This document shows positions 3,454 through 30,832 of a DNA stretch of 37,226 bases, piece after piece. Every line of letters starts with the position of its first letter. Positions within the stretch are counted from its first letter, which is position 1. This DNA comes from Acidobacteriota bacterium. GTDB lineage: Bacteria; Acidobacteriota; Terriglobia; Terriglobales; Acidobacteriaceae. The notes beneath the pieces are model-generated. The model ran no database searches and was not told the origin of the DNA. It saw only the letters and a program-made list of their open reading frames with translations. A program made the translations under genes and the position numbers. Where the stretch lies: NCBI GenBank assembly GCA_021818105.1, contig JAKAFB010000030.1, positions 1 through 37,226 of the forward strand, given 5' to 3'.

Positions 3454-3528
3454 AGGCGAAGGGGTTCGCCTGAACTGCTGTTCCATCCTTTTCAGTCTGC
3501 TTAAGATGGGCGGATGATGACCCCTGAC
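3454..3528 (+). promoter_or_regulatory. Fluoride riboswitch (crcB motif) 1, upstream of metallophosphoesterase operon
   Basis: Aptamer parts in order: stem GGCG (3455-3458) and CGCC (3467-3470) around AAGGGGTT, then TGAACTGC, a variable arm with CCATC/GATGG pairing, and the conserved 3' strand TGATGACCCCTGAC (3515-3528). Pseudoknot strands GGGGTT and GACCCC pair fully. The base after the conserved A of GA(T)GG is A instead of the usual T, as in the ppa copy. It controls the four-gene operon starting at 3633. Confidence 0.85.
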
Positions 3529-3547
3529 GAATTTGCGTCGGGGGGTC
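3519..3547 (+). promoter_or_regulatory. Expression-platform hairpin of riboswitch 1
   Basis: The 3' pseudoknot strand GACCCC also pairs downstream: GACCCCTGACG (3519-3529) with CGTCGGGGGGTC (3536-3547), six-base loop. This stem cannot coexist with the aptamer pseudoknot. No T run follows, so it is not a standard terminator; a further GACCCCC at about 3564 could compete with it. The mode of control is undecided. Confidence 0.6.
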
Positions 3548-3632
3548 TCCTGCTCATCGGACTGACCCCCACATTACTGGAATCTCTAGGGAAAGGCGCG
3601 ATTAGAGCTGCGCGCCGGGAGTGGGGGAAACT

Positions 3633-4349
3633 GTGAAAATCGTCATTGTCTCAGACATCCATGCAAATATCGCAGCACTCAAGGCGCTGCCTGAACATCA
3701 GTACGACGAATTGTGGTGTATCGGCGATCTTGTCGACTACGGCCCCAATCCTCATGAAGTGATCGAGTGGGTGCGTGCAAACGCTGATCTTGTGGTGCGT
3801 GGCAACCACGACTACGCAGCCGGCTTCAAGACAGACCCCCAGTGTTCCACGCCATATAAGAGACTGGCAGCAGACACACTTCGCTACACCCTGGACATTT
3901 GCACAGACAGCGACCTGACCTATCTCAAGGGCCTGCCCACTTATCAAGAAACGATTATTGGCAAGACACGGTTTTACCTGGTCCATGCCACGCCGACCGA
4001 CCCGCTGTTCGGCTACTGCGCCGCAAACTCTCCGAGTTGGATCGAACAGGTCAACTGCGTGGACACGGACGTGCTTGTTGTTGGGCATACGCATACCCCA
4101 TTCATTCGCCAGGAAGGTAAAACCGCCATTATCAATCCGGGCAGTATAGGCCAACCCAAGACAGGCCGGCCATTGGCATGCTACGCAGTATGGGAAGACG
4201 GCAACATGGCTCTTCGGGAGTATGAATACCCGATGGACGACACTATCCGTGGAATCCGGACCATGCCAATTACACGGGAAGATCAGGATGCATTGATAAC
4301 TGTGCTTCGCACAGGCGAAGTGCCGGCTGGGAAGACTGCTAAGCGATAA
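3633..4349 (+). CDS. Calcineurin-like metallophosphoesterase (YfcE/MJ0936 type)
   Basis: The protein (238 residues from the chosen start) carries the metal-binding motifs of the family: SDIHAN near the N-terminus, GDLVDYG, RGNHD, and GHTHTP followed by INPGSIGQP. Such proteins hydrolyse phosphodiesters or phosphomonoesters with two metal ions; the substrate here is unknown. I chose the GTG at 3633, which gives the usual MKIVIVSDIH start and has GGGAG/GGGGAA just upstream; a GTG at 3621 is in frame. It is the first gene after fluoride riboswitch 1 and lies 46 bases ahead of the cyclopropane-synthase-like gene, so it should be fluoride-induced. Fluoride often inhibits phosphoryl-transfer enzymes, so it may be a target made in excess or a signal-clearing enzyme (inference). 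Confidence 0.88.
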   Translation: MKIVIVSDIHANIAALKALPEHQYDELWCIGDLVDYGPNPHEVIEWVRANADLVVRGNHDYAAGFKTDPQCSTPYKRLAADTLRYTLDICTDSDLTYLKGLPTYQETIIGKTRFYLVHATPTDPLFGYCAANSPSWIEQVNCVDTDVLVVGHTHTPFIRQEGKTAIINPGSIGQPKTGRPLACYAVWEDGNMALREYEYPMDDTIRGIRTMPITREDQDALITVLRTGEVPAGKTAKR

Positions 4350-4395
4350 TGCAGGCCATGGAGACACACATCCAGGAAGCGAGGTGGAAAGGACG

Positions 4396-5676
4396 ATGCC
4401 CGAAGCTCAACAAACGCAGCGACTCAAGTTGTTGAATGATTTATTTCGAGACTACACTGGCCCGACATTTGCAATTCGCTTATGGGATGGCTGGCAGTGG
4501 GTTTCACTCCCCGCGGAACGGCCCGTATTCACCGTCAGTGTTGAAACCCCGCACGCTTTGGCAGCGATCATAGCGGAACCCAACGAGGTCACACTCGGCG
4601 AAGCATTCATTAACCAGGAAATCGACGTTGAAGGGGACATTTTCTCCGTCTTTACCGTCGCGGAGTATCTCCTAAACCGCCCACGCAGTTTGCAGCGTCG
4701 TGTAGCCGACTTTTTCCTGCGCACTGCCGCGCGATCTGAGCGATGGTTCCGCCAGGGAGCGCGCCACTCCAAGGGAAGGGACCGCGCATCCATCGCGTAT
4801 CACTACGATCAGCCGGTGGAGTTCTTTCGTCCTTGGCTGGGCAGCACGCTGGCCTACTCGTGCGCCTACTTTCGGTCTGCAAGCGATTCACTCGAAGCGG
4901 CCCAGACCCAAAAAATTGACTTAATCTGCCGCAAACTGCGGCTGCAACCGCTTGAGAGTTTTCTCGACATCGGATGCGGCTGGGGAAGCCTTGTGCTGCA
5001 TGCTGCACGAGAATATAACGCCCGCGCTCATGGCATCACCCTAAGCACAATTCAGGCAGAGACGGCACTGCGCAGAATCAAAGATGCCGGGACCGAGCAA
5101 AGATGCACAGTGGAATTGCGCGATTATAGAGACTGCGAAGCACTCCGCGGCTCATTTGACAAGATTGCGAGCGTCGGAATGTTTGAGCACGTAGGCCTGA
5201 AAAACTTGCCCACATACTTTAGCGCTGTTCACCGGCTTCTACGGCCGGGCGGTACGTTCTTGAATCACGGCATCGCGCGTTCCGCCCAGTCCCCCGTCCG
5301 TGATAACTCGTTTATCGATCGCTATGTTTTTCCGGACGGCAGACTTGTGACGCTTTCGGAAGCGATGATTGCGGCAGAAGACTCAGGCTTTGAAGTACGT
5401 GACGTGGAGAATCTGCGTGAACACTACGAGCTCACATTGCGCAAATGGGTGGAGGGGCTCCGCCAGAGCCGAGACGAGCTGCTGAATTATGTACCGGAGA
5501 CAACCTACAGAATATGGTTGCTGTACATGGCGGGGTCGGCCGCAGCTTTTCGTAGGGGAGACATTGCCGTCTACCAGGTTCTCTTGAGCCGACCGGAGAA
5601 GGGAAAAAGCCAGCTACCCCTTGTGCGTGAAGACTGGTACACGACAAGCAAAATAGAGCATGAGATCGAGGTATGA
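4396..5676 (+). CDS. Cyclopropane-fatty-acyl-phospholipid synthase-like methyltransferase
   Basis: A 426-residue SAM-dependent methyltransferase of the CfaS family (COG2230 type), which methylenates double bonds of membrane phospholipid acyl chains. The N-terminal part with FINQEIDVEGD matches the CFA-synthase lipid-binding half; the SAM site FLDIGCGWGS is at about 189-198, followed by the family's ASVGMFEHVG and a C-terminal region with LREHYELTLRKW. The ATG at 4396 has GGAAAGGA upstream and is preferred over the GTG at 4384. The stop overlaps the next start by four bases (ATGA). Placement in a fluoride-riboswitch operon suggests lipid modification as part of fluoride tolerance; cyclopropanation is known to lower membrane proton permeability, so an effect on HF entry is a reasonable inference. 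Confidence 0.88.
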   Translation: MPEAQQTQRLKLLNDLFRDYTGPTFAIRLWDGWQWVSLPAERPVFTVSVETPHALAAIIAEPNEVTLGEAFINQEIDVEGDIFSVFTVAEYLLNRPRSLQRRVADFFLRTAARSERWFRQGARHSKGRDRASIAYHYDQPVEFFRPWLGSTLAYSCAYFRSASDSLEAAQTQKIDLICRKLRLQPLESFLDIGCGWGSLVLHAAREYNARAHGITLSTIQAETALRRIKDAGTEQRCTVELRDYRDCEALRGSFDKIASVGMFEHVGLKNLPTYFSAVHRLLRPGGTFLNHGIARSAQSPVRDNSFIDRYVFPDGRLVTLSEAMIAAEDSGFEVRDVENLREHYELTLRKWVEGLRQSRDELLNYVPETTYRIWLLYMAGSAAAFRRGDIAVYQVLLSRPEKGKSQLPLVREDWYTTSKIEHEIEV

Positions 5677-6635
5677 CAGGTCCGGCACACGATGTTTCGG
5701 ACGAAACGATTGCGCAGCTGATTGCCGCACTGGACTCCCTTGTCGACGGAGACCGAGCGGCGGAGCAGTTGATTTCGCTTGGACAAAGAGTCATACCTTT
5801 TGTCGAGCGATTTCTAGTGGCATCTCGTCCAAGATCGATTTCTGTGCCACGCTGCCGGGCCGTTCGTATCCTGGGCGCACTCGGCGCCTACTCAAGCCTG
5901 CTCCATTATCTCCAAGAGAATGTACGTCCCGGTGACGCCGCAGTTCTGTTCGCTGAAGACGCTGTACGCAGCGCCGCTGCCCGCGAGCTGATGCGTTACG
6001 AGTCTCCGGCCACTTTCCGGGTTCTGCTGGATGCTGCGGAACATCGCCCGACCAGCGGACTTGTTCAAGCGCTCTCTCAATACTGCTGGCCCGAAAGTGT
6101 TCCCCTGCTCTTTAATTTGCTGGAAGACGACCTCTGCCGTGAGGACGCCAAGGAGGGTTTACGCAAAGTCCCGGAAGCAGCCAGAGCATACGCGATCTTG
6201 CTATTGCGTGGACTCACCCATCTTTCGATTCATGGATCAAATGCGTCACGTCGCAAGCGTGCCACCTTGCAGTTGCTCGTAGAATTCGGAATAAGCATGA
6301 ATGAGTGGCCCGACTTGCGCGGGTTCCTGCAGGATGAGGATAGGGATGCTGTGATTGCAGCCGCCACCCTCGGCCTGCAATTCGCCCCATCGGCTGAAAG
6401 ACTTGCAATTATCACCGCGCTGATTGAGTCGTCGGTAGATATGAATTGGGCGCAGGAAACTGAGACCCTCGAACTTCTGGATGCTTGGCCGTTGCTCGCG
6501 CGGCAGGCTGCAAGAGAAATCCGCGCTCAGCATGAAACGAGAGGAGAACGTCCCGAGTGGCTGTCTCCCTTTTGGAGAATTCTCCTTCACATCCTTGGCA
6601 GTGAGATGAAGGAGAAAAAATCAGGCGCCGCCTGA
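5673..6635 (+). CDS. HEAT-repeat-like protein of unknown function
   Basis: 320 residues, almost entirely helical, with repeated pairs of amphipathic helices such as AVRILGALGAYSSLLHYLQE, AVRSAAARELMRYESPATF, and DAVIAAATLGLQFAPSAERL, which is the pattern of HEAT/PBS-lyase repeats. No catalytic motif, signal peptide or membrane segment is visible. The start overlaps the stop of the methyltransferase gene (ATGA), so the two are translationally coupled, and the dynamin-like gene starts 13 bases after its stop. A second HEAT protein ends the crcB operon (22559-22960), so a HEAT partner accompanies a dynamin-like GTPase twice in this island. A scaffold role is a guess. Confidence 0.8.
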   Translation: MTGPAHDVSDETIAQLIAALDSLVDGDRAAEQLISLGQRVIPFVERFLVASRPRSISVPRCRAVRILGALGAYSSLLHYLQENVRPGDAAVLFAEDAVRSAAARELMRYESPATFRVLLDAAEHRPTSGLVQALSQYCWPESVPLLFNLLEDDLCREDAKEGLRKVPEAARAYAILLLRGLTHLSIHGSNASRRKRATLQLLVEFGISMNEWPDLRGFLQDEDRDAVIAAATLGLQFAPSAERLAIITALIESSVDMNWAQETETLELLDAWPLLARQAAREIRAQHETRGERPEWLSPFWRILLHILGSEMKEKKSGAA

Positions 6636-6648
6636 TTGCTCAGCGCGA

Positions 6649-8385
6649 ATGGCCTCAAAGAAGATTGATGTGGTGATAGCGATGGATCTGAAACAGTATG
6701 AGCAGACGAAATTCTCCTTGGCGGAGATCATTCGTGCTGCTCAAGCGGTCGACACAAAAGACCAGGACTTGCTCTCTGTCTCGCGTGATCTCTTGATGCG
6801 CCTGGCCGATGACCGCTTCAATCTTATGCTGGTTGGGCGCTTCAGCCGAGGCAAGTCCACCTTAATCAATGCAATTCTGGGCGCGGCTTATCTGCCCACA
6901 GGCATCCTTCCTCTCACCTCGGTCATCACTGCTGTCCGATACGGGAGCCGCACCCAGGTCGTCCTGCACTTCAATGATTCGCGACTGCGCCAGGAAATTC
7001 CCCTAGATCGCCTGGCCGAATATGTCACCCAGCAATCCAACCCCGGCAACGTCAAGAACGTGTCAGTAGCCGAAATTGAATTGCCGGGTGAGTTACTTCG
7101 CCGCGGAGTCTACTTCGTTGACAGTCCAGGGCTTGGCTCCGCGATTGCCGAAAACACGCAGACCACGGAGAGATTTTTTCCGGAGGCCGATGCCTTCGTT
7201 CTGATCACCAGCTTTGATAGTCCGCTTTCCGATGAAGAAAATCGCGCGTTGTACAAAATCCGCGAGACGAACAAAGCCCTCTTCGTGATCGTGAATAAAC
7301 AGGACACGATCGGCGACGATGAGCGCAAACAGGTTCTCGATTACGTTAAGTCTCAGTTGGAGCGTTTCTCGTTTCAAAGGTCTCCGCAGATCTTTTCTGT
7401 CTCGGCGCGACAAGCGGTGGAGGGGAAGCAGTCACAGCAACCGGATCTTGTTGCCAAATGCGGGATTCTTCAGTTTGAAGAAGAAATGCTCCGATTTCTC
7501 ATGGAAGAACGAGCGGAGGCTTTTCTCTCCAACATGTACGAGCGCATCCAGAACTTTCTTCTCGAGAGACGGAACCTGGAGAAAGAGGTCGAAAGACGGC
7601 CTATTTATGAATCCCTCCTGGATCAGCTCCACGAGTTACGTAATCCGGAGGCGAATCTGCCTCCGGAGCAGCAAGGGCATTATGTAGATGAGAATCCATC
7701 AACCCAAATTGCGCTTGAGTTGGAGAAACGAAGCGGATGCCGCATTTGCGGCCAGGTGCTGGATGCCATTTTTCATTTTCTCAGCAAGTATCAATATGAC
7801 CTGGTCATTAACAGGGATATCCAGCGGGAGCATGCGAAGAAGGGTGGCTTTTGTTCGCTTCATACATGGCAGTACGAAAACATTTCCTCGCCCTACGGAG
7901 TATGTACCGCATACCCTGAACTTGCCCACAGAATGGCGGCTGAGCTTCAGCAATTGGCATTCCGCAACGACGGCTCTTCCTGGACCGCAGAACGAATTAC
8001 ACGGCTTGGCGGCTCGCAGGACACATGCGAGGTCTGCCGCGTTCGCGTCGAGGCAGAACGCAAAGCAGTCAATGAGGCAGTAGCCGCATTGCAGAAATCG
8101 GAGGCTTTGTCGAACCACAAGCTGCCCGCCTTCTGCCTTCTCCACCTTGCAATGCTTGTCAGCCAGTTGGGAAAGGGACCGGTAGCCGAGTCCTTGTTGA
8201 GCGCCCATGCCCGATTCTTCGAGCGATTGGCGGAAGACTCGCAGCGGTTCGCTCTCCGGCACGATGCCCTGCGACGGCATTTGACCAGCGAAGAGGAGCG
8301 CCGCGCTTCCCAGTTGCTACTTCTGATGCTGACGGGGCATCGCAGCTTGTGCGCACCATGGAATGTCCAATCCCTGCTCTCGTAA
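6649..8385 (+). CDS. Dynamin-like GTPase fused to a Cys/His-rich DUF6062-like domain (DLP1)
   Basis: 578 residues. The GTPase domain has G1 GRFSRGKST (63-71), a conserved PLTS switch-like segment (88-91), G3 DSPG (158-161) and G4 NKQD (216-219). After a helical stretch with EERAEAFLSNMYERIQNFL comes a C-terminal domain with four paired ligands: CRIC (364-367), FCSLH (C402, H405), CEVC (460-463), FCLLH (C496, H499). The same spacing occurs in the stand-alone protein at 25890-26456 and resembles DUF6062 proteins; metal binding is likely but inferred. Bacterial dynamin-like proteins bind and remodel or repair membranes. It is the last gene of the operon under riboswitch 1. No good ribosome binding site precedes the ATG at 6649; the ATG at 6682 is possible. 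Confidence 0.88.
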   Translation: MASKKIDVVIAMDLKQYEQTKFSLAEIIRAAQAVDTKDQDLLSVSRDLLMRLADDRFNLMLVGRFSRGKSTLINAILGAAYLPTGILPLTSVITAVRYGSRTQVVLHFNDSRLRQEIPLDRLAEYVTQQSNPGNVKNVSVAEIELPGELLRRGVYFVDSPGLGSAIAENTQTTERFFPEADAFVLITSFDSPLSDEENRALYKIRETNKALFVIVNKQDTIGDDERKQVLDYVKSQLERFSFQRSPQIFSVSARQAVEGKQSQQPDLVAKCGILQFEEEMLRFLMEERAEAFLSNMYERIQNFLLERRNLEKEVERRPIYESLLDQLHELRNPEANLPPEQQGHYVDENPSTQIALELEKRSGCRICGQVLDAIFHFLSKYQYDLVINRDIQREHAKKGGFCSLHTWQYENISSPYGVCTAYPELAHRMAAELQQLAFRNDGSSWTAERITRLGGSQDTCEVCRVRVEAERKAVNEAVAALQKSEALSNHKLPAFCLLHLAMLVSQLGKGPVAESLLSAHARFFERLAEDSQRFALRHDALRRHLTSEEERRASQLLLLMLTGHRSLCAPWNVQSLLS

Positions 8386-8456: not shown

Positions 8457-8526
8457 TTGGCTGAACCGATTCCGCGACACAGGGCGATTTCATTGCGGCA
8501 TGATTTGGAAATATGCTACGTTGAAG

Positions 8527-8584
8527 ATGGTGAAGGGATCCACCATAAACCGCCGCCCAATATGGATCGGCTGATGACCCCTGC
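8527..8584 (+). promoter_or_regulatory. Fluoride riboswitch (crcB motif) 2, upstream of ppa
   Basis: Stem ATGGTG (8527-8532) pairs with CACCAT (8541-8546) around AAGGGATC; then AAACCGCC, a variable arm, and GGCTGATGACCCCTGC (8569-8584), which matches the conserved 3' half of the motif. Pseudoknot strands GGGATC/GACCCC pair with one A-C mismatch. Placed directly before a terminator and the pyrophosphatase gene, a known partner of this riboswitch class. Confidence 0.92.
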
Positions 8585-8603
8585 AAATGGCAGGGGTTTT
8601 ATT
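8577..8603 (+). terminator. Riboswitch-controlled intrinsic terminator before ppa
   Basis: ACCCCTGC pairs with GCAGGGGT over a 5-base loop and is followed by TTTATT. The 5' arm is the same CCCC used in the aptamer pseudoknot, so fluoride binding should block the terminator and let transcription reach ppa. Confidence 0.9.
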
Positions 8604-8640: not shown

Positions 8641-9174
8641 ATGAACAGCTACCTTGAGCTTCCCATTGGCGACAAAGCCCCTGAGGTGCTGACGGCGGTC
8701 GTCGAAATCCCCGAAGACAGCACGAACAAGTACGAATATGACCGCGACCTGAATGTCTTCGTGCTGGACCGCGTTCTGCATTCCCCGGTTCATTACCCAG
8801 GCGATTATGGTTTCATTCCGCAGACGATTGCGCAGGACGGCGACCCACTGGACATCCTGATTCTCGGCGACACGCCAACCTTTACAGGATGCATTTATTC
8901 CGTCCGCCCCGTCGGCATGTTTGAGATGTTGGACCATGGGGTCTGCGATGAAAAGATTCTCGCGTTTGCCATGGGCAATCCACGGTTCACCGGCATTGAA
9001 AACTACACGGACATTGAGCCGCATATCCTCCGTGAAGTCGAGCACTTCTTTTCCGTTTACAAGAGTCTCGAGGAGCAGGAGACAAAGGTGCTTGGGTGGA
9101 AGAATCGCGCTGCAGCATACGAGGTAATCCGGTCGAGCCATGAGCGGTTCCTTCACAGCACCGTTGCCAAATGA
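8641..9174 (+). CDS. ppa: Inorganic pyrophosphatase, family I
   Basis: 177 residues, the usual length for the family I soluble enzyme that hydrolyses PPi to phosphate and so drives biosynthetic reactions. Visible are VVEIPEDSTNKYEYD near the N-terminus, HYPGDYGFIP, and the metal-binding DGDPLDILIL. Start ATG has AAGGAGA a few bases upstream. Fluoride is a strong inhibitor of these enzymes because it replaces the attacking water in the metal site, and pyrophosphatase genes are established members of fluoride-riboswitch regulons. Here a riboswitch with terminator lies 40-110 bases upstream. The next gene overlaps or closely follows. Confidence 0.95.
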   Translation: MNSYLELPIGDKAPEVLTAVVEIPEDSTNKYEYDRDLNVFVLDRVLHSPVHYPGDYGFIPQTIAQDGDPLDILILGDTPTFTGCIYSVRPVGMFEMLDHGVCDEKILAFAMGNPRFTGIENYTDIEPHILREVEHFFSVYKSLEEQETKVLGWKNRAAAYEVIRSSHERFLHSTVAK

Positions 9175-17928: not shown

Positions 17929-18228
17929 ATGCCGCGTTTTCGAATGCGATCTAACGCGAATTTCCAGAGCCGCTATTCTGCGTACGCCCGTAACCACAAT
18001 ATGACACCCGAGCAAATGCGGATACATGACAGGCAGTGTCATCCAGATACGATGCTCACTCCGTTTCTCCTCTGGCTGAGCCACAGGAGATTAGAGTGGA
18101 ACCGATTGCATCCTGATCATCAGATCCATACTGGAATTGAGCCTGCCGAATTCGATCAGTGGCTTCAGCAATTAGAGCCAACGGCCAATGCACTCACGTG
18201 TGAGTGCCACTTAGGCGCCGTGCCGTAG
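17929..18228 (+). CDS. Small conserved-looking hypothetical protein
   Basis: 99 residues with a good ribosome binding site (GGAGG, six bases before the ATG). The sequence is rich in His, Arg and Trp (for example MTPEQMRIHDRQCHP, and FLLWLSHRRLEWNRLHPDH) with a balanced composition that looks protein-coding. It ends with CECH. No domain is recognised. Its 3' end overlaps the convergent MutS-like gene by 35 bases. No riboswitch precedes it. It is the only plus-strand gene between 9943 and 32467. Confidence 0.55.
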   Translation: MPRFRMRSNANFQSRYSAYARNHNMTPEQMRIHDRQCHPDTMLTPFLLWLSHRRLEWNRLHPDHQIHTGIEPAEFDQWLQQLEPTANALTCECHLGAVP

Positions 18229-21524: not shown

Positions 21525-21554
21525 AGTATCTTCAGTGGTTCAATGGTCTGTCAA
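21525..21554 (-). promoter_or_regulatory. Sigma70-type promoter for mutS-like operon
   Basis: On the minus strand a perfect TTGACA (21549-21554) is followed after 18 bases by GATACT (21525-21530). Transcription would begin a few bases before the riboswitch aptamer, which fits. Confidence 0.65.
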
Positions 21555-22558: not shown

Positions 22559-22960
22559 CTAGCCTGAGCACGAAACGCAATCATTCTTCTCGCCAATCTT
22601 CTGAAGGCTCTTGAGCGCTGTTGCTGCAAGGAAGCGGTTATCGCATCGGCTGACTTCTCGTAAGAGTTGCATAGCCCTCGTATCCTTCAATTCACCAAGA
22701 GTCTCCAATGCCGCCCTGCGAACAAAGAGGTCTTCGTCTACCATCGCCAGTCGCATCAGGTCCGGTACTGCCTCGCATGTGTGATTCTTCCCAATCAGCC
22801 AGCAGATGCGCACTCTTGCTTCAGGCAAGGGGTGCGCGAGTGCTCCAATCAACTTCTCCTCGTACGTCCTGTTGTCCAGCGTGAGATCAGCCTTGCACTT
22901 GGGGCATACCGTGTCTGCAGAACTTACTTCACGCCAGCAATGTGTACAGTAGGCAATCAT
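22559..22960 (-). CDS. Zinc-ribbon and HEAT-repeat protein
   Basis: 133 residues. The N-terminus carries a zinc-ribbon, CTHCWREVSSADTVCPKC (two CxxC pairs), and the remainder forms two to three HEAT repeats (PLPEARVRICWLIGKN, DEDLFVRRAALETLGEL, DNRFLAATALKSLQKIG). Such proteins act as adaptors. It follows the second dynamin-like gene after 30 bases and is the last gene of the crcB operon. Like the HEAT gene at 5673 it accompanies a dynamin-like GTPase, so it may be its partner (inference). Confidence 0.8.
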   Translation of the reverse strand: MIAYCTHCWREVSSADTVCPKCKADLTLDNRTYEEKLIGALAHPLPEARVRICWLIGKNHTCEAVPDLMRLAMVDEDLFVRRAALETLGELKDTRAMQLLREVSRCDNRFLAATALKSLQKIGEKNDCVSCSG

Positions 22961-22990: not shown

Positions 22991-24745
22991 TTATGCAAGG
23001 GCCATAATCTCTTTTTCAAATCGTTCGAGACGCTCAATCGCCGACTGCACAGCAGGAGTCCCTTCCTCCTTGACTCTCCGCGCGCGCTCAAGTGCCTGCT
23101 CTGCAATGCGACTGATTTCGTGCAGCAGCTTGCGAATCTCCACCTCAAGTCGATCCCGGCTTTCTTGAATACGATTGAGAACATCGTTTTGAACACGGGC
23201 GCTGTTCACTTCCAGCAGATGCCTCAAAAATTTCCGGGCCTCATTCGCGATCATCCTGCGTCCCCCTACAAGGGGCAAAAACACATCAGCAATCCAACGC
23301 AGCGGCGAAGGCGGCTGCGCTGTTCCAATAAAGTCTTCGAAAATAAATCTGGAACGTATACGGAAGCCCTTTTCCGGATCGAGCGCATGCGGCATTCGTG
23401 TCAGTTCGCTCAGGCCTGCGTCCGCCAACTTTTTCAGGAAGGTGTTTCCCATCTCCACAAATCGAATGGCGACCGCACGATATTGGCGCTCTCCCTCTTC
23501 CTGTTCAACCTTGAGCCATGGCGTAACTTCTTGCCGTGAGATCTCCTGCGCTAGGCGCATCAGTCGACGACGATAATGCGGGCCAAAGCCGCGAGAAATG
23601 GACGGCAGCTTCTCATCAAATTTCTTTTCAGATTCCGTGCATGCTGATGCAAAGAATTGCCGGCGCCTTCCCACAAGAAAGTCTGAGATCCTATGCTGCT
23701 CCGCCATAAACAGGAAGCTCAACTCGCGCATGGAACGCCCTGCCTCATGAATGGTTTCCTTCATGAGTTCGATGCGCCGTTCAGATTGCTCGATAGGCCT
23801 CAGCAGTGCATCGCGATCCTCGCTGATGATAGCCAACAGTTGTTCGCTGAGGCGTTGAATCCCCCGGTCTCCTGCGGTTCGCACAAGATCTCTGCCTGAG
23901 TCTTCAACCAGGTGGCGCAAACTCGCCAGCATTTTCTCCCAGTCTCTTATCGGACCCCGATTTTCAATCCGCTCAATTGCACTAACTTCATAAACCTCAC
24001 CCATGGGGCGCTGTAGCCGCTTTTCCAGAACTCGGCGCGTAAAACTTGCTGCTGCAGCACGCTCGGGGTCGCTGGTTCTGTCAGCTTTATTGATCACGAG
24101 TATCAAATCCTGCACTTGCTTACCAACTGCTTCAACAAGCGCCAACTCTTCACCCGCAATCGGCGGATCAGCACCCACAACAATCAATGCCGCATCAATG
24201 TGAGGAATAAATGCCTGTGTGGTTGCCGTATTTCCAGTGAAGACCGAGCCCAGGCCCGGTGTATCTACAAGACACATGCCGGAGGACAACAAAGGGCTTG
24301 GTACGTATACTTCCGCGCCATCCACCCCCTTCTTATTTTCCGGGTTGAGCTCTTCGGTCACATACTCTTTCAGGTCAGGTATAGCGACTTCCAGCCACGA
24401 TCCGTCTCGCATGCGGACGCGCGCGTGTACTGTCTCTCCAAACCGTATGACCGTGGGTACCGCTGTGACAGGAACAAATCCAGTCGGCACAACTGCATGA
24501 CCGACCAGGGCGTTGAGCAGGGTCGATTTACCGCGCTTGAACTGGCCGACACAGGCTACATAAAACCGTCCTTCAGCAACCCGCGCCGCTAATTCGCTTG
24601 CTTCTTCTGCAACAGGATCTGCCCCTAGCTCTCGTGCCAGATCAGCAAGCCGCAACAGGCGCGAGGCCCCATCCGTGAGCCTCGGTGTCTCACTCGTAAG
24701 CTCGCCGAAATCCTGCGTCGTCAAACCGCTGTTGATTTCCTGCAT
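22991..24745 (-). CDS. Dynamin-like GTPase (DLP2)
   Basis: 584 residues. GTPase motifs: G1 GQFKRGKST (67-75), conserved PVTAVPT (92-98, switch region), G3 DTPG (161-164), G4 NKAD (219-222). From about 290 onward the protein is a long helical stalk ending in a coiled coil rich in Glu and Arg; a short hydrophobic stretch (LRWIADVFLPLVGG) about 100 residues from the end may be the membrane paddle. Members of this family bind lipid bilayers and bend, fuse or repair them. It lies in the crcB operon, 30 bases behind a DUF190 gene, and should be made when fluoride is present. Confidence 0.88.
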   Translation of the reverse strand: MQEINSGLTTQDFGELTSETPRLTDGASRLLRLADLARELGADPVAEEASELAARVAEGRFYVACVGQFKRGKSTLLNALVGHAVVPTGFVPVTAVPTVIRFGETVHARVRMRDGSWLEVAIPDLKEYVTEELNPENKKGVDGAEVYVPSPLLSSGMCLVDTPGLGSVFTGNTATTQAFIPHIDAALIVVGADPPIAGEELALVEAVGKQVQDLILVINKADRTSDPERAAAASFTRRVLEKRLQRPMGEVYEVSAIERIENRGPIRDWEKMLASLRHLVEDSGRDLVRTAGDRGIQRLSEQLLAIISEDRDALLRPIEQSERRIELMKETIHEAGRSMRELSFLFMAEQHRISDFLVGRRRQFFASACTESEKKFDEKLPSISRGFGPHYRRRLMRLAQEISRQEVTPWLKVEQEEGERQYRAVAIRFVEMGNTFLKKLADAGLSELTRMPHALDPEKGFRIRSRFIFEDFIGTAQPPSPLRWIADVFLPLVGGRRMIANEARKFLRHLLEVNSARVQNDVLNRIQESRDRLEVEIRKLLHEISRIAEQALERARRVKEEGTPAVQSAIERLERFEKEIMALA

Positions 24746-24775: not shown

Positions 24776-25117
24776 TCACTTCCCAGGCTCCCGTGAATAG
24801 CGAATCACCTCAACACGGGATGTAGCGATCAAGCCTTCTTCCACCATGGCGTCCAAATGCGGTATTAGTTTTTGAATCTGTTCATCGGAATCAATAATGG
24901 TCAGCATGATAGGAGCGTCTCTGGATAATGCCCAATGGCTCGCATGGCGAATTCTTGTACTCGTCCCATAGCCTTCGATCCCACGGTATACGATTGCGCC
25001 TGCCATCCCTAACTCCTGACATTTTGCGACAATCGCCTCATACAACGGCTTTCCCTGCCACTTGTCGCCTTCACCAAAGTGGAGGCGCAGCATACTCGCT
25101 TCAAATCTCTCTTTCAT
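24776..25117 (-). CDS. DUF190 protein (single domain)
   Basis: 113 residues. LRLHFGEGDKWQGKPLYEAI, then GAIVYRGIEGYG and a C-terminal SRVEVIRY match DUF190, a small ferredoxin-like/PII-like fold that is often encoded beside crcB. Its exact role is not established; a regulatory partner of the channel is the usual guess. A strong ribosome site (GGAGAGG) precedes the ATG, four bases after the stop of the tandem DUF190 gene. Confidence 0.9.
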   Translation of the reverse strand: MKERFEASMLRLHFGEGDKWQGKPLYEAIVAKCQELGMAGAIVYRGIEGYGTSTRIRHASHWALSRDAPIMLTIIDSDEQIQKLIPHLDAMVEEGLIATSRVEVIRYSREPGK

Positions 25118-25121: not shown

Positions 25122-25880
25122 CTACCTCTCCTGCTGAGGTACTTCTAAAGGTGCATCAACTGCTTCCTCCTGGTCCAATGCAGTGGCCCGGAATGCATAC
25201 TTTATGATGTCGACATTCGAGAGGACGATAAGCCCCTCTTCCACCATCTGCTCAACAATGGGCATAAATCCCTGAAGTTTATCCTCTGAATCGATTGCGG
25301 AGAGCATGATCGAGCAATCACTGGAGAGGCGCAATGCTCGATCCTTGTGAATCCGCCGTTGCGCCCCATAGCCGAGAATGCCTCTATACACGGTAACGCC
25401 AGCGATGTCATTGGCTCGCATCGCCTCAACAAGAGCTCTATGCAGCGGCTTGTCACGCCAGCGATCGCCCTCGCCAATGTAAATTCTCATCATCTTGGCC
25501 TTGCCCTCAATCTTGACGTGTTCGGGAACAGCTCCCACTTTCGTCTTCGTTCTTTGGGCCGGCTTGGCAACGGAAGTCTCCTGCACCTCAATCATCCCGG
25601 TACCAACAAGCTCCTCCAGCTTTCCAAGGATCTCATTCACCTTTTCGCGCGACTCGATGAACTCGATCTTCAAGGGCAACCGATCAGAAATTTCGACGGA
25701 TCTTGATGTGTGGAGGCGATGATCAGCGCCAAATCCCGCGATGCCTTTCGTTACTGTCGCTCCCGAAACGCCCCGATAGAAAAGAAAATCTAGGATGCTT
25801 GAATACGTCGCGACCCCATGATAGGTGGAACCTTCACTGATATAGATGGAAACCTTGAGTGCCTTTCCAGCATTAAGCAT
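25122..25880 (-). CDS. Tandem DUF190 protein
   Basis: 252 residues made of two DUF190 domains: residues about 7-100 (VSIYISEGSTYHG, GATVTKGIAGFG, MIEVQE) and about 125-230 (MRIYIGEGDRWRDKP, GVTVYRGILGYG, VDIIKYA), joined by a basic linker with PAQRTKTK. The second half closely resembles the separate DUF190 gene downstream, the first half is diverged, so the operon holds three DUF190 copies. Good ribosome site (GGGAGG). It lies nine bases behind the Cys/His-rich gene. Confidence 0.9.
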   Translation of the reverse strand: MLNAGKALKVSIYISEGSTYHGVATYSSILDFLFYRGVSGATVTKGIAGFGADHRLHTSRSVEISDRLPLKIEFIESREKVNEILGKLEELVGTGMIEVQETSVAKPAQRTKTKVGAVPEHVKIEGKAKMMRIYIGEGDRWRDKPLHRALVEAMRANDIAGVTVYRGILGYGAQRRIHKDRALRLSSDCSIMLSAIDSEDKLQGFMPIVEQMVEEGLIVLSNVDIIKYAFRATALDQEEAVDAPLEVPQQER

Positions 25881-25889: not shown

Positions 25890-26456
25890 CTATGCCCTGA
25901 GTCCGCGCTGAGCAACTAAAAACTCTGCGGCTCGTCCAAGTGCGCCCCAGCCTGTGCGATCCGGACTGGGATCATTTCTCAAGTGAATCAGCTCATCTTT
26001 CAGCTGTTCCCGCTGATTTCGGATGATCATGTCTATCCGCGCTGTGAGCGTCAGCGGCACCTTCTGGCGCAGCTTCATAGCGTGCGGAATACAAAACACG
26101 GCCTCCATCCGCAACCATCTCACAACATCCGGCCGTCCCAATAAGGTGATAAGTTCGCGAATACGCCGATCCTCCTCTTCGCTCACCTTGTGGCACACAT
26201 CGCAGTCAGGCCGCGAATCCGTTACGCATCCATCTTGATTCACCAGCGTCAGAAACACTTCGGCAGCGGACTGTGCATCTTGCACCGCTGCAACGCCCCA
26301 CGCATGAAAGTTGCACAGACGATGGATGTCCTTTGCCGAGTCTCCCTGTAAATGCAGTGCTTGGAAATCCTTCAAGAAGCGGCAAAACGGACAGCCAGGC
26401 TCATGCAATAGTTCCACGATTGATTGATGAAGTACGATTTGCCGATGTGCTCTCAC
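25890..26456 (-). CDS. Cys/His-rich DUF6062-like protein
   Basis: 188 residues from the GTG at 26456, chosen because it overlaps the crcB stop by four bases (GTGA); a longer frame to 26489 runs inside crcB and begins with unlikely text. Ligand pairs: CPFC (22-25), LCNFH (C48, H51), CDVC (85-88), FCIPH (C122, H125). The same order and spacing form the C-terminal domain of DLP1 (6649-8385). Fold and function are not established; binding of two metal ions is likely. Lying between crcB and DUF190 genes, it should be fluoride-induced. Confidence 0.8.
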   Translation of the reverse strand: MRAHRQIVLHQSIVELLHEPGCPFCRFLKDFQALHLQGDSAKDIHRLCNFHAWGVAAVQDAQSAAEVFLTLVNQDGCVTDSRPDCDVCHKVSEEEDRRIRELITLLGRPDVVRWLRMEAVFCIPHAMKLRQKVPLTLTARIDMIIRNQREQLKDELIHLRNDPSPDRTGWGALGRAAEFLVAQRGLRA

Positions 26457-26830
26457 GCAATCACCTCCGCGAGGACAGCGCCCCCCCACGCCGCCACAAG
26501 CCCCAAAATCAAACTCCCTATTGCATAAAGGGCAGCCAGGGAGAACGCGCCGGTTCTAAGAGACGAAAGCGTCTCCCATTCATAGGTCGAAAAGGTGCTG
26601 TATGCACCTACAAAGCCGGTCGGAATAAGGAAGCGCCACGCCGGATTCAACTCAGCGCGCTTGCCAAGGTACGTAAGTGAAAAACCGATGATGATACAGG
26701 CACTGATGTTGATCAAAAAAGTTCCGTAGGGGAATTTCGTTCCTAACCGACTGGCGACCTCAGAGCCAACCCAATATCGGGCAATGGCCCCCAAAGAACC
26801 TCCCACCGCGATGAAAAAGTATTTTTGCAA
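26453..26830 (-). CDS. crcB: Fluoride channel CrcB/Fluc
   Basis: 125 residues with four hydrophobic segments, the usual size of one subunit of the dual-topology Fluc dimer that lets fluoride out of the cytoplasm. Visible are GGSLGAIARYW at the N-terminus, GTFLINISACIIIGF (with the pore Asn) and GFVGAYSTFSTYEWET, which holds the Phe and the Na-site region. The start is TTG with GAGGAG about eight bases upstream. It lies 24 bases behind DLP3 and overlaps the next gene by four bases. It is the key gene that fixes the theme of the island. Confidence 0.95.
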   Translation of the reverse strand: MQKYFFIAVGGSLGAIARYWVGSEVASRLGTKFPYGTFLINISACIIIGFSLTYLGKRAELNPAWRFLIPTGFVGAYSTFSTYEWETLSSLRTGAFSLAALYAIGSLILGLVAAWGGAVLAEVIA

Positions 26831-26854
26831 AATCTCGTCTCCTCAATAAACATG

Positions 26855-28945
26855 TCAAGGTTGCCTTACATCAGCATCATTTCCTGATTCCCATCTCAGC
26901 AGCTTCGCCAGATCACGACTCAGTTCCGGCGATGCCTCGGCCTCACCCGCAAGCCCACGTACGCGATTGAGCTGCGCGCGATAGGCATCAGAAAATGAAT
27001 TTACAAACGCCACCATCTTCCTGCTTGTCTGCTCAGTCCATAAATCGAGTGCACGCTTGTACCGATGCAGCTCCTCCTTAAGTAGAGGCCCAAGTTGCTC
27101 CCTCAGGCTGCTCATTACCAGTGAACGTACTATTCTCCTGCCCGCCCAGTTCCATTGGGCTGCACCAATCTTTATAGGGATCACTTCAATCTCGAAACGC
27201 GGCACTTCGCGCAGAAGCACTTCCGCATCCGCTGTTGAAGGAACATCGGAACGCAACATTTCCCTTGCTATGTCTGTCAATGTCTCCACGGCCTTCATAA
27301 GGCTGCTTCGCGTCTTGGCGATTGCCTGATCCACTCGCCTTTGCACTGCATCGTGGGTCCACTCAGAAATCTCAAATGGCGTGACGCTCCTCTTTTCACC
27401 CACAGCAATACGCGCCGTAACCATGTCCGCCAGTTCTGCCAGGATGACTTCCGGGCGCTCTCCCAGCTCAAGGAAAGCCTGGTCCAACCTGCTTCGCTGT
27501 TCACCAATCTCGCCATTGATCCGCCGAAGTCGGACTTCGATTTCATGTTCATCAACCATGTTTGCGACATCTCTCCCGCGCTTTTCGCGGTCGAGGGAAG
27601 TCTCAAGCGCGGCGATCACAGAATCACGCAGGGCGCCTATTTTTCTGGCGACTGATGCCTCACGCAGGCTTCGTGCCTGTTCAAATCTTGGGTAAAGTTC
27701 GCGTTCAAAAAAGTGATCAAGAAGCAGCGAGTATTCCGGCAAGGAGCTCACCGGATGAATCTGGGTGCTAATGCCTAATTCCCTTTGCAACTGGGTATGG
27801 ATATACTCCATAACCCGGTGGAGCTCACCTTCCCGCAAAAGGTCGGCTTTGCTTAGCAGGACAATGGACGGAATTCCACCTTCGTAGAGCAGGCGAAGCG
27901 TTCCTATGTCCTCATCGTTAAGCGACACGCCGGCATCGATCAGCAGCAGGGCCAGATCGCAGGCAGGCAAATATGCCAGCGTTTCTGCTGCGCCGCGCCG
28001 TGCCAGGGAGCCAAGCCCTGGTGTATCGACAAGAAGGATACCCTTCTTCAGGCGCGGAGATGGAACCTCAGCCATGGCGCGCACCACGCTCTGGATGTTT
28101 CCGGGGTTTCCTTGCTCGGTGATGAGTTGCGCAAACTCCTCCAGTGAAACGTCTTCGATTCGTCCGCTGGCGAAGGTGACTTCTGCCCGGAGCTCATTTC
28201 CATAACGCAACTTCGTTGGCACAGCCGTGATCGGATTGACGCCAACCGGCAACACATGAGCATCCAGAAGCGCATTTAGGAGTGAGGATTTTCCACTGCT
28301 CACCCGGCCAAAGAGCGCAACTTCAAGATTGTTGTCTTCCAGCCGCTGCGCCAGCGAGGCCACACGCGACCGAAACTCCACCAATCCATGCCGCGTGATG
28401 ACTTCCTCAAGCTCTCGCAGCAGCCCTACATCGTGTCCGGTCTGTTCCAGTTCCTGCAGTCGAGATTGGAGATTCGTTCCAAATTCCTGACGAATATACC
28501 GCTGCATGCTCTGGACAACGGATCGGAGTTCGTGAACTACACCCGTCAGCTCTTCCACTGCTTCAGCCGGAACAGCTCCTGATCCGCGCATATAGTTTGG
28601 CTTCAGCTCTTCAACAGCAATATCGATGAATTCCAAATGCGTAAGCACCGACCGGGTCGCTGGAATTTCCGGTGGTTCAGGCTGCATTTGCTGCCAGGCA
28701 AGCGTGCGCAAAAGCTGATCACGCAAACGGCGTATGTGATCTTCCAACACACGCGCTTGCGCAGGCGTTATGTCGATAACGTGACGCGGGAAGGGAGACG
28801 GCGATGCCGTCTCGTGGAGAACCTGTTCAATTTCGACGAGCAGCTTGTCGATGTATGAGCAGGTCACATACAGCCGCCGCTGCTGAGCTTCGTTCAACTC
28901 ACCTCGGTTTCCGGCTTGCGTGATCCCTGGTTGAATGTTGGGCAT
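26855..28945 (-). CDS. Dynamin-like GTPase, long form (DLP3)
   Basis: 696 residues, the longest of three dynamin-like proteins here because of an extra 200-residue helical N-terminal region. GTPase motifs: G1 GRVSSGKSS (213-221), NPITAVPT in the switch region (237-244), G3 DTPG (307-310), G4 SKAD (365-368). The remainder is helical. Different numbers of helical segments and different G1 text mean the three proteins are diverged paralogues, perhaps working as hetero-oligomers as in other bacterial dynamin pairs. It is the first gene of the crcB operon; its ribosome site GGAGGAG and ATG are part of a 10-bp inverted repeat with the fluoride aptamer. Confidence 0.9.
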   Translation of the reverse strand: MPNIQPGITQAGNRGELNEAQQRRLYVTCSYIDKLLVEIEQVLHETASPSPFPRHVIDITPAQARVLEDHIRRLRDQLLRTLAWQQMQPEPPEIPATRSVLTHLEFIDIAVEELKPNYMRGSGAVPAEAVEELTGVVHELRSVVQSMQRYIRQEFGTNLQSRLQELEQTGHDVGLLRELEEVITRHGLVEFRSRVASLAQRLEDNNLEVALFGRVSSGKSSLLNALLDAHVLPVGVNPITAVPTKLRYGNELRAEVTFASGRIEDVSLEEFAQLITEQGNPGNIQSVVRAMAEVPSPRLKKGILLVDTPGLGSLARRGAAETLAYLPACDLALLLIDAGVSLNDEDIGTLRLLYEGGIPSIVLLSKADLLREGELHRVMEYIHTQLQRELGISTQIHPVSSLPEYSLLLDHFFERELYPRFEQARSLREASVARKIGALRDSVIAALETSLDREKRGRDVANMVDEHEIEVRLRRINGEIGEQRSRLDQAFLELGERPEVILAELADMVTARIAVGEKRSVTPFEISEWTHDAVQRRVDQAIAKTRSSLMKAVETLTDIAREMLRSDVPSTADAEVLLREVPRFEIEVIPIKIGAAQWNWAGRRIVRSLVMSSLREQLGPLLKEELHRYKRALDLWTEQTSRKMVAFVNSFSDAYRAQLNRVRGLAGEAEASPELSRDLAKLLRWESGNDADVRQP

Positions 28946-28979
28946 GACTCCTCCAAGTATTTGCGCTTCGAGGAGTCAT
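28944..28979 (-). promoter_or_regulatory. Start-codon-sequestering hairpin of riboswitch 5
   Basis: A perfect 10-bp inverted repeat, ATGACTCCTC (minus strand, 28970-28979) and GAGGAGTCAT (28944-28953), loop 16. The first arm is the aptamer's 3' pseudoknot strand; the second arm contains the Shine-Dalgarno sequence and the first two bases of the DLP3 start codon. The two structures exclude each other. Confidence 0.88.
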
Positions 28980-29017
28980 TTGCCCAGTTGAGCTTTTTAG
29001 GTGGACTCCAACACCGC
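28970..29017 (-). promoter_or_regulatory. Fluoride riboswitch (crcB motif, GUUGG variant) 5, upstream of DLP3-crcB operon
   Basis: Minus strand: GGTG-TTGGAGTC-CACC, TAAAA, arm GCTC-AACT-GGGC, then AAATGACTCCTC. Pseudoknot GGAGTC/GACTCC is perfect. GTTGG replaces GATGG and AAATGAC replaces CTGATGAC, as in riboswitch 4. It lies wholly in the 94-base gap between enolase and DLP3; no promoter is evident there, so the RNA may be read through from enolase. Confidence 0.9.
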
Positions 29018-29039
29018 ATGCGCATTTCTGCGCCTTCAG

Positions 29040-30332
29040 TTAACCCCTCCAGCGCTTGTAAATACTTGCGCCGGCGTACTTCGCCGCGGATCCCAACTCG
29101 CGCTCAATTTCAAGCAGCCGGTTGTATTTCGCGATCCGTTCTCCCCGGCATGCAGAACCCGTCTTGATCTGGCCCATGCCTACCGCAACGGCAAGATCTG
29201 CAATGCTGGTGTCATCCGTTTCTCCCGACCGATGCGAGATAACCGCGCCATAGCCGTGATCACGCGCCATCTGGATGCAGTCGAGCGTTTCTGTGACAGT
29301 GCCAATCTGATTCAGCTTGATGAGAATCGCATTGGCAATTCCATCCTTGATTCCCTTGCTGAAGATCTCAGGGTTCGTAACAAAATTGTCGTCGCCTACA
29401 AGCTGGATCTGACTCCCCAACTCTTTGGTCAGTGCGACCCATCCGTCATGGTCGTCTTCGGCCATGCCATCTTCCAGAGACCAGATCTCCGGGTACTTCT
29501 TGAGCCAGCTCTTATAGAGAGCGATCATCTCGGCAGAGGTCTTCTTGCTCTTGTCCGATTTGGCAAACACATAGTTGCCGTTTTCAAAAAATTCGCTGGG
29601 AGCAGGATCCAGCATGATCACGATGTCCTTGCCCGCCTTATAGCCCGCCTTCTGGATAGCTTCCAGAATCAGCTCAACCGGCTCTTCGTTTGACTTCAAC
29701 TGCGGAGCAAATCCACCTTCATCCCCCACGGAGGTGCTGTAGCCCTTCTTATGCAGCACTTCCTTCAGGGTATGAAAGGTTTCCACGGCCGCGCGAAGCC
29801 CCTCGCTGAAGGATGGGAAGCCCACCGGCGAAATCATGAACTCCTGAAAATCCACGTTGCTGTCGGCGTGCTTGCCACCGTTCAGCACATTCAGTCCCGG
29901 CGTGGGGAGAAGATTAGCCGGCTTGTCCACCAGCGTCGCATAAAGCGGAAGTCCCTTGTCCTTTGCCGCTGCATGAGCAACCGCCAGTGATACGCCAAGG
30001 ATTGCGTTCGCGCCAAGGCGGCCTTTGTTCGGGGTCCCGTCGAGATCACAAAGCTTCTTGTCCAGCCCCTTTTGGTCATGCGCATTAAAGCCGCGGACTG
30101 CGTTCTGAATCTCGCCTTCCACGTAGCCTTTGGCTTTCAAAACACCCTTACCGCCATAACGGGCCTTATCGCCGTCCCTAAGCTCTACAGCTTCGCGCTT
30201 GCCTGTCGAGGCGCCCGAAGGCACCTTGGCAGTCGCGGTGACTCCATTGGCCAGGGTCGCGGTAACGGCCAGTGTAGGATTCCCACGAGAGTCCAAAATT
30301 TCGAGTGCTTGGAGTTTTGCAATTTCAGACAT
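29040..30332 (-). CDS. eno: Enolase
   Basis: 430 residues, full length, cytosolic glycolytic enzyme converting 2-phosphoglycerate to phosphoenolpyruvate. Visible: [11 protein letters not shown] at the N-terminus, [19 protein letters not shown], and [17 protein letters not shown] with the catalytic Lys and His region. Enolase is inhibited by fluoride together with phosphate and Mg, and eno is an established fluoride-riboswitch gene. The aptamer is about 440 bases upstream with a small membrane-protein gene in between, so eno is the second gene of that unit. Whether the genome has another eno cannot be seen here. Confidence 0.97.
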
Positions 30333-30431
30333 GATAATTCCGCTTTCTCGGCCACATGGCCGTAAGTGTTAAAGAAGACAAGCAGCAGCACAGCGTTCGC
30401 ACCGCCAAAGGCGCTCCCGCAAAGCCGACTC

Positions 30432-30704
30432 TCAAGGGTTGCCCCTTCCGGCTCGGGAGTTTGCAAGGGTTCCTACAGTTTGCTCTGTCAGGAATGTCTT
30501 GGGGATTCTGCGACGGGGAACGGGGACGATCCGAGGCGCGCTTTGCTGCGACCCATTCTTGCCTCGGAGGGTGCCAGCGCTCAGCCGTTCAAGTGTGCCA
30601 GACTCCGCTTTGGAGAAGTATCGCCGCTGCTTCAGCCAGCCAGCACGTATTATGACAACCAGCGTCATCCCAACCCACAAACCTGAGATGGTCCATGCGC
30701 TCAT
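30432..30704 (-). CDS. Small single-span membrane protein between riboswitch and eno
   Basis: 90 residues from the ATG at 30704, which has a strong AAGGAG nine bases upstream. Residues 5-23 (TISGLWVGMTLVVIIRAGW) form one membrane segment; the rest is a basic tail rich in Arg, Lys and Ser (KQRRYFSK, RGKNGSQQSAPRIVPVPRRR). The longer frame to 30899 would run through the riboswitch and is not believed. No known family is recognised. It is the first gene after fluoride riboswitch 6 and ends 100 bases before eno, a gap with a small palindrome (CGGCCA/TGGCCG, about 30349-30362). Confidence 0.65.
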   Translation of the reverse strand: MSAWTISGLWVGMTLVVIIRAGWLKQRRYFSKAESGTLERLSAGTLRGKNGSQQSAPRIVPVPRRRIPKTFLTEQTVGTLANSRAGRGNP

Positions 30705-30749
30705 GGATCCACACTCCTTCAGTTTATTCAGGGATTCATGCCGGGACAC

Positions 30750-30780
30750 GACTCCGCGACAGGATTCCCTGTCAGGAGTC
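30750..30780 (-). promoter_or_regulatory. Expression-platform hairpin of riboswitch 6
   Basis: On the minus strand GACTCC-A/T-GACAGG pairs with CCTGTC-GC-GGAGTC over a GAAT loop. The left arm includes the aptamer's GACTCC. No T run follows and the next ribosome site is about 40 bases on, so it may work by blocking or by Rho access instead of direct termination; the mode is open. Confidence 0.65.
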
Positions 30781-30832
30781 ATCATCTGTTCAGCCTGCTG
30801 GCGACAGCGGTTAAAGGCGAACTCCGTCACCT
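30771..30832 (-). promoter_or_regulatory. Fluoride riboswitch (crcB motif) 6, upstream of small membrane protein and eno
   Basis: Minus strand: GGTG-ACGGAGTT-CGCC, TTTAACCGC, arm CTGT/ACAG with inner GCC-AGCA-GGC, then TGATGACTCCTGAC. Pseudoknot GGAGTT/GACTCC pairs. GATGG is GACGG here. The aptamer is directly preceded by an AT-rich TTTTTATAACG (30837-30847) that could be the -10 of its promoter, with TTGACT copies about 20 bases before it. Confidence 0.92.

Follow-up and report, generated by a model that had tools for sequence, protein, structure and literature searches.

In a window of 37,226 nucleotides (nt), meaning the whole stretch of DNA analysed here (Acidobacteriota bacterium, Acidobacteriaceae; assembly GCA_021818105.1, contig JAKAFB010000030.1), a 27-kb island at positions 3,454-30,832 lies between the genes for tRNA-Glu and a DUF507 protein. 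Very probably, this island carries six fluoride-type aptamers of the crcB motif, predicted to turn on about 21 genes as fluoride rises. Two of the six, aptamers 4 and 5, carry base pair 6-38 in inverted form, as U6-A38 in place of A6-U38. Fluoride islands are already known (Enterobacter cloacae GI3) and similar clusters recur in relatives; within the literature that could be searched, the flipped pair, an aptamer inside an eno-dynamin-crcB operon with predicted translation control, and dynamin-like GTPases as regulon members are new.

Six aptamers and an inverted 6-38 pair

A sequence-only reading of the window had placed six crcB-type aptamers, each just before a gene. All six positions proved correct, and downstream of every aptamer lies a gene in the same orientation.

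3446..3533 (+): fluoride aptamer 1, A6-U38 type, before the phosphoesterase, CFA synthase, HEAT-like and DynA genes (unit 1), RF01734 29.2 bits, E 2.6e-4 (below cut-off); kept in relatives
8520..8590 (+): fluoride aptamer 2, A6-U38, before ppa, RF01734 45.2 bits
17361..17425 (-): fluoride aptamer 3, A6-U38, before the efflux operon, RF01734 43.7 bits
21457..21517 (-): fluoride-type aptamer 4, flipped U6-A38, RF01734 21.1 bits, R1 60.7 bits (by construction); found in relatives
28966..29019 (-): fluoride-type aptamer 5, flipped U6-A38, in the 94-nt gap between eno and dynC, RF01734 14.2 bits, R1 64.6 bits (by construction); found in relatives
30766..30840 (-): fluoride aptamer 6, A6-U38, before eno, RF01734 36.8 bits

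As a check, the same reading had named six significant cmsearch hits with the Rfam fluoride model, our reference covariance model RF01734 (gathering cut-off 34 bits). Four aptamers reached significance, three of them above the cut-off (aptamers 2, 3 and 6) and aptamer 1 below it; six Rfam matches were thus rejected as proof of six aptamers. When the whole window was scanned, aptamers 4 and 5 went unmatched even with the threshold relaxed to E 5, and the scores listed for them come from scanning each alone in 101 bases (E 3.1e-4 and 0.057, respectively). Model R1 was built on an alignment of 66 flipped aptamers, both window copies among them. It gave the four standard window aptamers 30.3, 28.7, 18.6 and 12.6 bits, and a non-site at 28934-28957 (+) scored 13.9 bits and so outranked the lowest of these. 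R1 also matched standard aptamers elsewhere (107 of 199 relatives at E 1e-4) and was rejected as a detector specific to flipped aptamers.

Aptamers 4 and 5 both read GGUGUUGGAGUCCAC...A-A/G-AUGACUCCU; compared with the RF01734 consensus, GGcGAUGGaGUUCgCC...CUGAUGACUCCU, they have U for A at position 6 and A for U at position 38. A6 and U38 themselves are present in the other four window aptamers. The sequence-only reading, which had described the six sites alike, missed the inverted pair in two of them. Because U6-A38 replaces A6-U38, aptamers 4 and 5 score low with RF01734. Moreover, the MutS-class aptamer lacks the G24-C37 closing pair of helix P3, and 27 of the 66 aligned flipped rows are unpaired there. 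In the portions of the cited literature available here and below, A6-U38 is a reversed Watson-Crick pair in T. petrophila (PMC11586693), and the equivalent reversed pair in B. cereus is A10-U38 (PMC10687018). The regions reported to covary in RF01734 are P1, the pseudoknot and P3, and the 6-38 pair is not among them in the part of that study available (PMC13273304).

Two search patterns with a fixed U6-A38 were used, the first also with a fixed pseudoknot and the second slightly wider. The first gave 11 matches in 10 of the 199 genomes of the relatives panel (own genome, G000, included), and its backward control gave 0. The second, run on a collection of 84,980 species, matched 62 stretches, all in records titled with an Acidobacteriota lineage; among viral contigs, the flipped pattern had 0 matches. 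In the 66 aligned flipped aptamers, 96.4% of the P1, pseudoknot and P3 cells are paired (P1 100%, pseudoknot 99.7%, P3 88.6%), compared with 42.8-56.8% in slid controls.

Since both patterns demand U6-A38, they are unable to show covariation, for which other samples were used. In alignment A2, which has 140 rows and omits the seven longest of the standard ones, pair 6-38 is AU in 74 rows and UA in 66, with 0 unpaired, and the whole-structure covariation score is 0.273 (shuffled, 0.139). An open-pair scan of 399 genomes of the class, in which positions 6 and 38 were free, gave 42 matches in 28 genomes and 0 in its backward control; 39 of the 42 pair at 6-38 (U-A 16, A-U 15, G-C 7, G-U 1), and two of the three unpaired matches (U-C) lack P1. 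Similarly, of 80 extra hits hand-picked among the Rfam and R1 matches listed, with the aim of covering other families and loci not yet sampled, 76 could be parsed (all but L209, L221, L271 and L277) and 74 of these pair (A-U 53, U-A 18, G-C 3; the others A-C 2). Merging gave 244 distinct aptamers, a non-random sample in which Rfam favours A-U and R1 favours U-A, with A-U 148, U-A 81, G-C 10, A-C 3 and G-U 2 at 6-38; judged by their letters, positions 6 and 38 are complementary in 241 of the 244. Among the 181 aptamers from loci not selected via the flipped-pair pattern, 98.3% pair at 6-38, whereas 59.1% would be expected if the two columns were independent. Finally, U48 is present in 82/82 A-U and 70/70 U-A aptamers; A40, with which it forms the linchpin pair (PMC8752731), was fixed by the search expression. 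Positions 6 and 38 co-vary as A-U, U-A or G-C, with the pseudoknot, A40 and U48 unchanged, and the inverted aptamers therefore probably fold as the standard ones do and sense the same ion.

These data bear on the possibility that aptamers 4 and 5 are decayed or chance look-alikes and that only the four Rfam-supported aptamers work, to which their RF01734 scores below the cut-off would point. We consider this improbable in the extreme: the 62 stretches of the same form are confined to records with Acidobacteriota titles, with platform and gene conserved, and sister sequences with the same swap pass the Rfam cut-off at L122, L112, L052 and L070. Because the same arrangement recurs before the same genes in relatives, the pattern control gave 0 and the helices are kept in the 66 aligned flipped aptamers, the comparative evidence indicates that aptamers 4 and 5 are real. 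The notion that flipped aptamers are invisible to Rfam was also rejected, those four being among 14 flipped sites in 13 scanned loci.

Two further observations concern the aptamers in general. An A-C mismatch inside the pseudoknot recurs in aptamer 2 and its ppa-class relatives, and 19 of the 140 A2 rows are unpaired at that column pair. Fluoride aptamers also occur in pairs about 30-260 bp apart, in tandem in L014, divergent in L074, and likewise at other loci.

Genes and predicted expression platforms behind the aptamers

In the window, the flipped aptamers head two MutS-like genes (aptamer 4) and the series dynC-crcB-hyp-DUF190-DUF190-dynB-HEAT (aptamer 5). Taking the 62 stretches together with the window's two, 61 of 64 flipped sites stand before a dynamin-like or MutS-like gene (DynC 40, MutSa 20, MutSb 1); at two of the three sites with no match, the fetched stretch stops within 220 nt. 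crcB lies within the next 2.6 kb at 28 of the 40 DynC sites, and 8 of the remaining 12 stretches stop too early. Across relatives, flipped aptamers precede DynC-like, DynB-like and MutS-like genes, crcB and DUF190-crcB. U-A aptamers stand directly before crcB in L285 and L286 and before DUF190-crcB in L293 and L295, a G-C aptamer directly before crcB in L301 and an A-U aptamer in L154 (CrcB identified by eye). G-C aptamers also precede predicted cation/proton antiporters and dynamin-like GTPases (both by eye).

Other riboswitch classes can acquire a new ligand through changes close to a binding site, and in the window the flipped aptamers control other genes than the standard ones do. The U6-A38 elements could therefore be variant riboswitches that keep the fluoride fold and bind a changed ligand, for example another anion. 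We regard this as very unlikely: flipped and G-C aptamers stand directly before crcB or DUF190-crcB, crcB is near most DynC sites, and the A-U, U-A and G-C types are all found before crcB, in different genera. Moreover, the magnesium ions that hold fluoride are contacted by backbone oxygens and not by bases 6 and 38 (PMC11586693). Since U-A and G-C aptamers stand directly before crcB and the contexts are those of fluoride defence, the ligand of the flipped aptamers is likely to be fluoride, unchanged.

The following elements were predicted around the aptamers.

8576..8598 (+): intrinsic terminator using the aptamer 2 pseudoknot strand; similar hairpins occur in relatives
21525..21554 (-): sigma-70-like promoter TTGACA-18-GATACT, just before aptamer 4; 10/12 matches
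28944..28979 (-): aptamer 5 expression platform, in which 28971-28979 (AUGACUCCU) complements 28944-28952 (AGGAGUCAU)
30846-30874 (-): promoter-like TTGACT-17-TACGAT, before aptamer 6

A perfect downstream complement of at least 6 nt to the pseudoknot strand is present at 54 of 69 U-A sites and 44 of 82 A-U sites, compared with 6-7% in mononucleotide shuffles. Platforms with a T-run are found at 16/82 A-U and 1/69 U-A sites (Fisher p 4e-4); as the sequences are related, we keep the relation between platform type and pair type as a correlation only. For ppa, we infer that aptamer 2 and its terminator form a transcriptional ON switch. At aptamer 5, AGGAGUCAU spans the dynC ribosome site and the first two bases of the AUG, the platform fold has z -3.26, and the exact AGGAGTCAT lies over the dynamin start at 35 of 43 dynamin-class sites. 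In the mutS leader, the pseudoknot strand (21462-21467) complements 21441-21446 over the ribosome site. In aptamer 6, ACUCCU (30774-30779) pairs in the minimum-energy fold with AGGAGU (30713-30718), the predicted ribosome site of a short open reading frame (ORF), and the centroid fold has a local GACUCC/GGAGUC hairpin instead. This ORF (30432-30704) could encode a leader peptide under translational control. The pseudoknot strand of aptamer 1 is also part of a strong downstream hairpin without a T-run, and aptamer 3 has no convincing fold (z +1.45).

These arrangements suggest a mechanism in which magnesium-bound fluoride would lock the pseudoknot and so keep its ACUCC/ACCCC strand from downstream pairing. 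Without fluoride, the freed strand would form a terminator at ppa, or mask the ribosome site of dynC, of mutS and perhaps of the short ORF before eno. Aptamer 5, situated between eno and dynC-crcB, would gate translation after leader aptamer 6 has acted. CrcB would export fluoride, and eno and ppa would add copies of fluoride-sensitive enzymes; the dynamins, the cyclopropane-fatty-acid (CFA) synthase and the efflux systems may protect membranes, the least certain of these roles.

The model of aptamer 5 begins 20 nt past the eno stop codon. eno is upstream at 36 of the 43 dynamin-class sites (five are without eno and two at contig edges), and at 33 of these 36 its last aligned residue is 26-47 nt from the aptamer. 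A TTGAC-type promoter motif lies within 70 nt at 13/21 mutS-class and 0/43 dynamin-class sites; overall, promoter-like sites are as frequent in shuffles (10 found in the region, 8.2 in shuffles). The simplest reading is that eno-dynC-crcB is one transcript, sensed twice, with co-transcription predicted. The six transcription units of the sequence-only reading are supported as predicted units; with aptamer 5 located within the eno operon, the fifth and sixth may belong to a single transcript.

Several points weigh against the six elements acting as a single set of fluoride switches. The flipped aptamers 4 and 5 are under the RF01734 cut-off, and three of the 244 aptamers have A-C cells at 6-38. 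Because the 244 aptamers are related and their loci were sampled unevenly, the counts exceed the number of independent 6-38 swaps. A downstream complement of 5 nt is absent at 11/69 U-A and 27/82 A-U sites, and the pairing over the ribosome sites behind aptamers 3 and 4 is not seen in minimum-energy folds. Finally, the borders of the transcription units were set by gene direction and spacing.

More tentatively still, and as a possibility we place somewhat short of probable, aptamers with U6-A38 would be a subtype found across the Terriglobia (by record titles) and specialised for translation control, the eno-dynC-crcB mRNA would read fluoride twice, with a standard aptamer in its leader and a flipped one within the operon, and fluoride-induced dynamin-like GTPases would be a new, membrane-directed arm of the defence.

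Genes and chromosomal site of the island

The six predicted units comprise 21 genes, close to the nearly 20 of the sequence-only reading.

Unit 1
3621..4349 (+): metallophosphoesterase (calcineurin-like), Pfam PF12850
4384..5676 (+): methyltransferase of cyclopropane-fatty-acid synthase type, Pfam CMAS, E 6e-88
5673..6635 (+): HEAT-repeat-like protein, weak Pfam HEAT_2 match (E 1.6e-5, below cut-off)
6649..8385 (+): dynamin-like GTPase DynA, Pfam Dynamin_N; PDB relatives BDLP and IniA
Unit 2
8641..9174 (+): inorganic pyrophosphatase (ppa), one of three in the genome
9140..9943 (+): AAA/ATPase_2-like protein, weak Pfam matches below cut-off; adjoins ppa in relatives
Unit 3
15967..17346 (-): outer-membrane efflux protein, TTG start as listed, Pfam OEP
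14738..15970 (-): RND membrane-fusion protein
11670..14741 (-): RND efflux permease, Pfam ACR_tran
10181..11410 (-): MFS transporter, Pfam MFS_1; probably the last gene, after a 260-bp gap
Unit 4
19777..21435 (-): MutS-like ATPase a, GTG start; of the MutS domains, only V scored over cut-off
18194..19780 (-): MutS-like ATPase b, likewise with domain V alone over cut-off
Unit 5
26855..28945 (-): dynamin-like GTPase DynC
26453..26830 (-): CrcB (Fluc) fluoride channel, Pfam CRCB
25890..26489 (-): protein of unknown family, no Pfam or NCBIfam match; after crcB in relatives too
25122..25880 (-): DUF190 protein, double domain
24776..25117 (-): DUF190 protein, single domain
22991..24745 (-): dynamin-like GTPase DynB
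22559..22960 (-): zinc-ribbon/HEAT protein
Unit 6
30432..30704 (-): short ORF (90 aa), between aptamer 6 and eno
29040..30332 (-): enolase (eno), one of two in the genome

CrcB is homologous to solved Fluc channels (best E 1.1e-15). The Dynamin_N GTPase domain is over the Pfam cut-off in DynA, DynB and DynC, and these proteins reach no NCBIfam model at its cut-off. The MutS-like ATPases lack the full MutS domain set and are far below the NCBIfam MutS cut-offs. A longer ORF reading 30432-30899 had no family match. Outside the island, the genome encodes another enolase (62% identical) and two more pyrophosphatases (56% and 48%), so that the island eno and ppa look like extra copies. The sequence-only reading had named established members of fluoride regulons, and crcB, ppa, eno, DUF190 and MutS-like genes are indeed present; in the parts of the literature seen, the three dynamin-like GTPases, the CFA synthase, the HEAT proteins, the RND pump and the MFS carrier are not established members.

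The borders of the island are as follows.

2836..2910 (-): tRNA-Glu (anticodon CTC), left border
31326..31601 (-): DUF507, right border

In the window, the island separates these two genes by about 28.4 kb, and the window's own DUF507 locus contains no tRNA-Glu. DUF507 was found in 33 of 40 genomes of the genus searched. A tRNA scan covered 30 loci, namely the window's and 29 from relatives (1.9-3.3 kb each). In 20 of these 29, tRNA-Glu(CTC) adjoins DUF507, which leaves the island's slot empty in these close relatives; the gap measures 85-256 bp in 19 and about 1.05 kb in L177. Some of the nine relatives' loci without a called tRNA end at a contig edge, and L169, L186, L193 and L195 keep a 34-36 nt piece of the tRNA. 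In L169, the first ~35 nt of tRNA-Glu stand beside DUF507 and are followed by unrelated sequence, which may be another element or an anticodon intron.

The cluster could instead be an old chromosomal block lost by most relatives. No tRNA repeat was found at the far end of the island and no integrase among the island proteins scanned, and for want of these, insertion of the window island by a tRNA integrase was rejected; moreover, the island of G066 occupies the same tRNA-DUF507 slot. Against such a block, island genes are also present in G006, G021 and G023, where tRNA-Glu lies next to DUF507, the gene order of the island is shuffled between genomes, and third-position G+C is lower in the island (0.53-0.68) than in the right-flank genes (0.76-0.82). 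We consider an old block unlikely and favour an acquired island. On the other side of tRNA-Glu in G066 (L197:10035-15755), an integrated element seems to occupy this tRNA as well: the stretch holds an integrase that by eye resembles a tyrosine recombinase (10870-12021), together with an incomplete copy of the 3' part of the tRNA (10035-10120).

So many copies in one place had been thought exceptional, a view that the relatives do not bear out. At E 0.001, 139 of the 199 genomes have at least one RF01734 match (128 over the cut-off), and 11, our genome included, have at least six (G039 13, the maximum; G015 9; G021 and G023 8; G006 and G030 7; G000, G045, G066, G079 and G150 6). G066 and G111 have comparable contiguous islands, that of G066 without the RND trio. 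Elsewhere in our genome, contig C82 has two further RF01734 matches, one above and one below the cut-off. At C82:26728-26790 (L001), a strong standard aptamer (56.2 bits) precedes a membrane protein that resembles, by eye, a NuoH/formate-hydrogenlyase subunit.

Relation to known systems and implications

The window aptamers share with the described crcB motif P1, P3, the five-pair pseudoknot, A40, U48, gene contexts and the overlap with terminators (PMC2864571). They differ from it in that the two U6-A38 aptamers are below the cut-off, the MutS-class one is without G24-C37, and fluoride action here is predicted from sequence. crcB-motif RNAs were known before mutS, ion transport and formate hydrogen lyase genes, overlapping terminators (PMC2864571), and eno, pyrophosphatase and Na+/H+ antiporters in fluoride-riboswitch contexts (PMC11139923).

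A close known system is GI3 of Enterobacter cloacae FRM, which likewise has a fluoride riboswitch, extra eno and pyrophosphatase genes and crcB, and whose genes act together as judged by knockouts (PMC5533749). As far as the available part of that source goes, GI3 has one riboswitch and six genes, whereas here there are six aptamers and 21 genes, with dynamins, MutS-like proteins, DUF190, CFA synthase, an RND pump and an operon-internal aptamer in addition (PMC5533749). Extensive riboswitch control in one genome, as here, is also described for Methylobacterium DM4 and Streptomyces cattleya (PMC11139923). The island dynamins are similar in their GTPase part to the bacterial dynamin-like proteins BDLP (2j68), a GTP-binding pair (5owv) and IniA (6j72). 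Neither a link between fluoride and dynamins nor a flipped pair was found by title or abstract in the literature searched, which did not contain the original riboswitch and crystal papers, so that priority is unproven.

Pair 6-38 is part of the fold that surrounds the magnesium-fluoride cluster and is A-U in the described structures (PMC11586693, PMC10687018). That it occurs naturally as A-U, U-A and G-C supports this tertiary pair with independent evolutionary evidence and supplies ready-made mutants for asking whether the pair tunes affinity or kinetics. As relatives write 6-38 as A-U, U-A or G-C, the fluoride switch is more variable than the reference model suggests, and the Rfam cut-off misses fluoride aptamers in Acidobacteriota. 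Finally, the island likely extends the fluoride regulon to dynamin-like GTPases.

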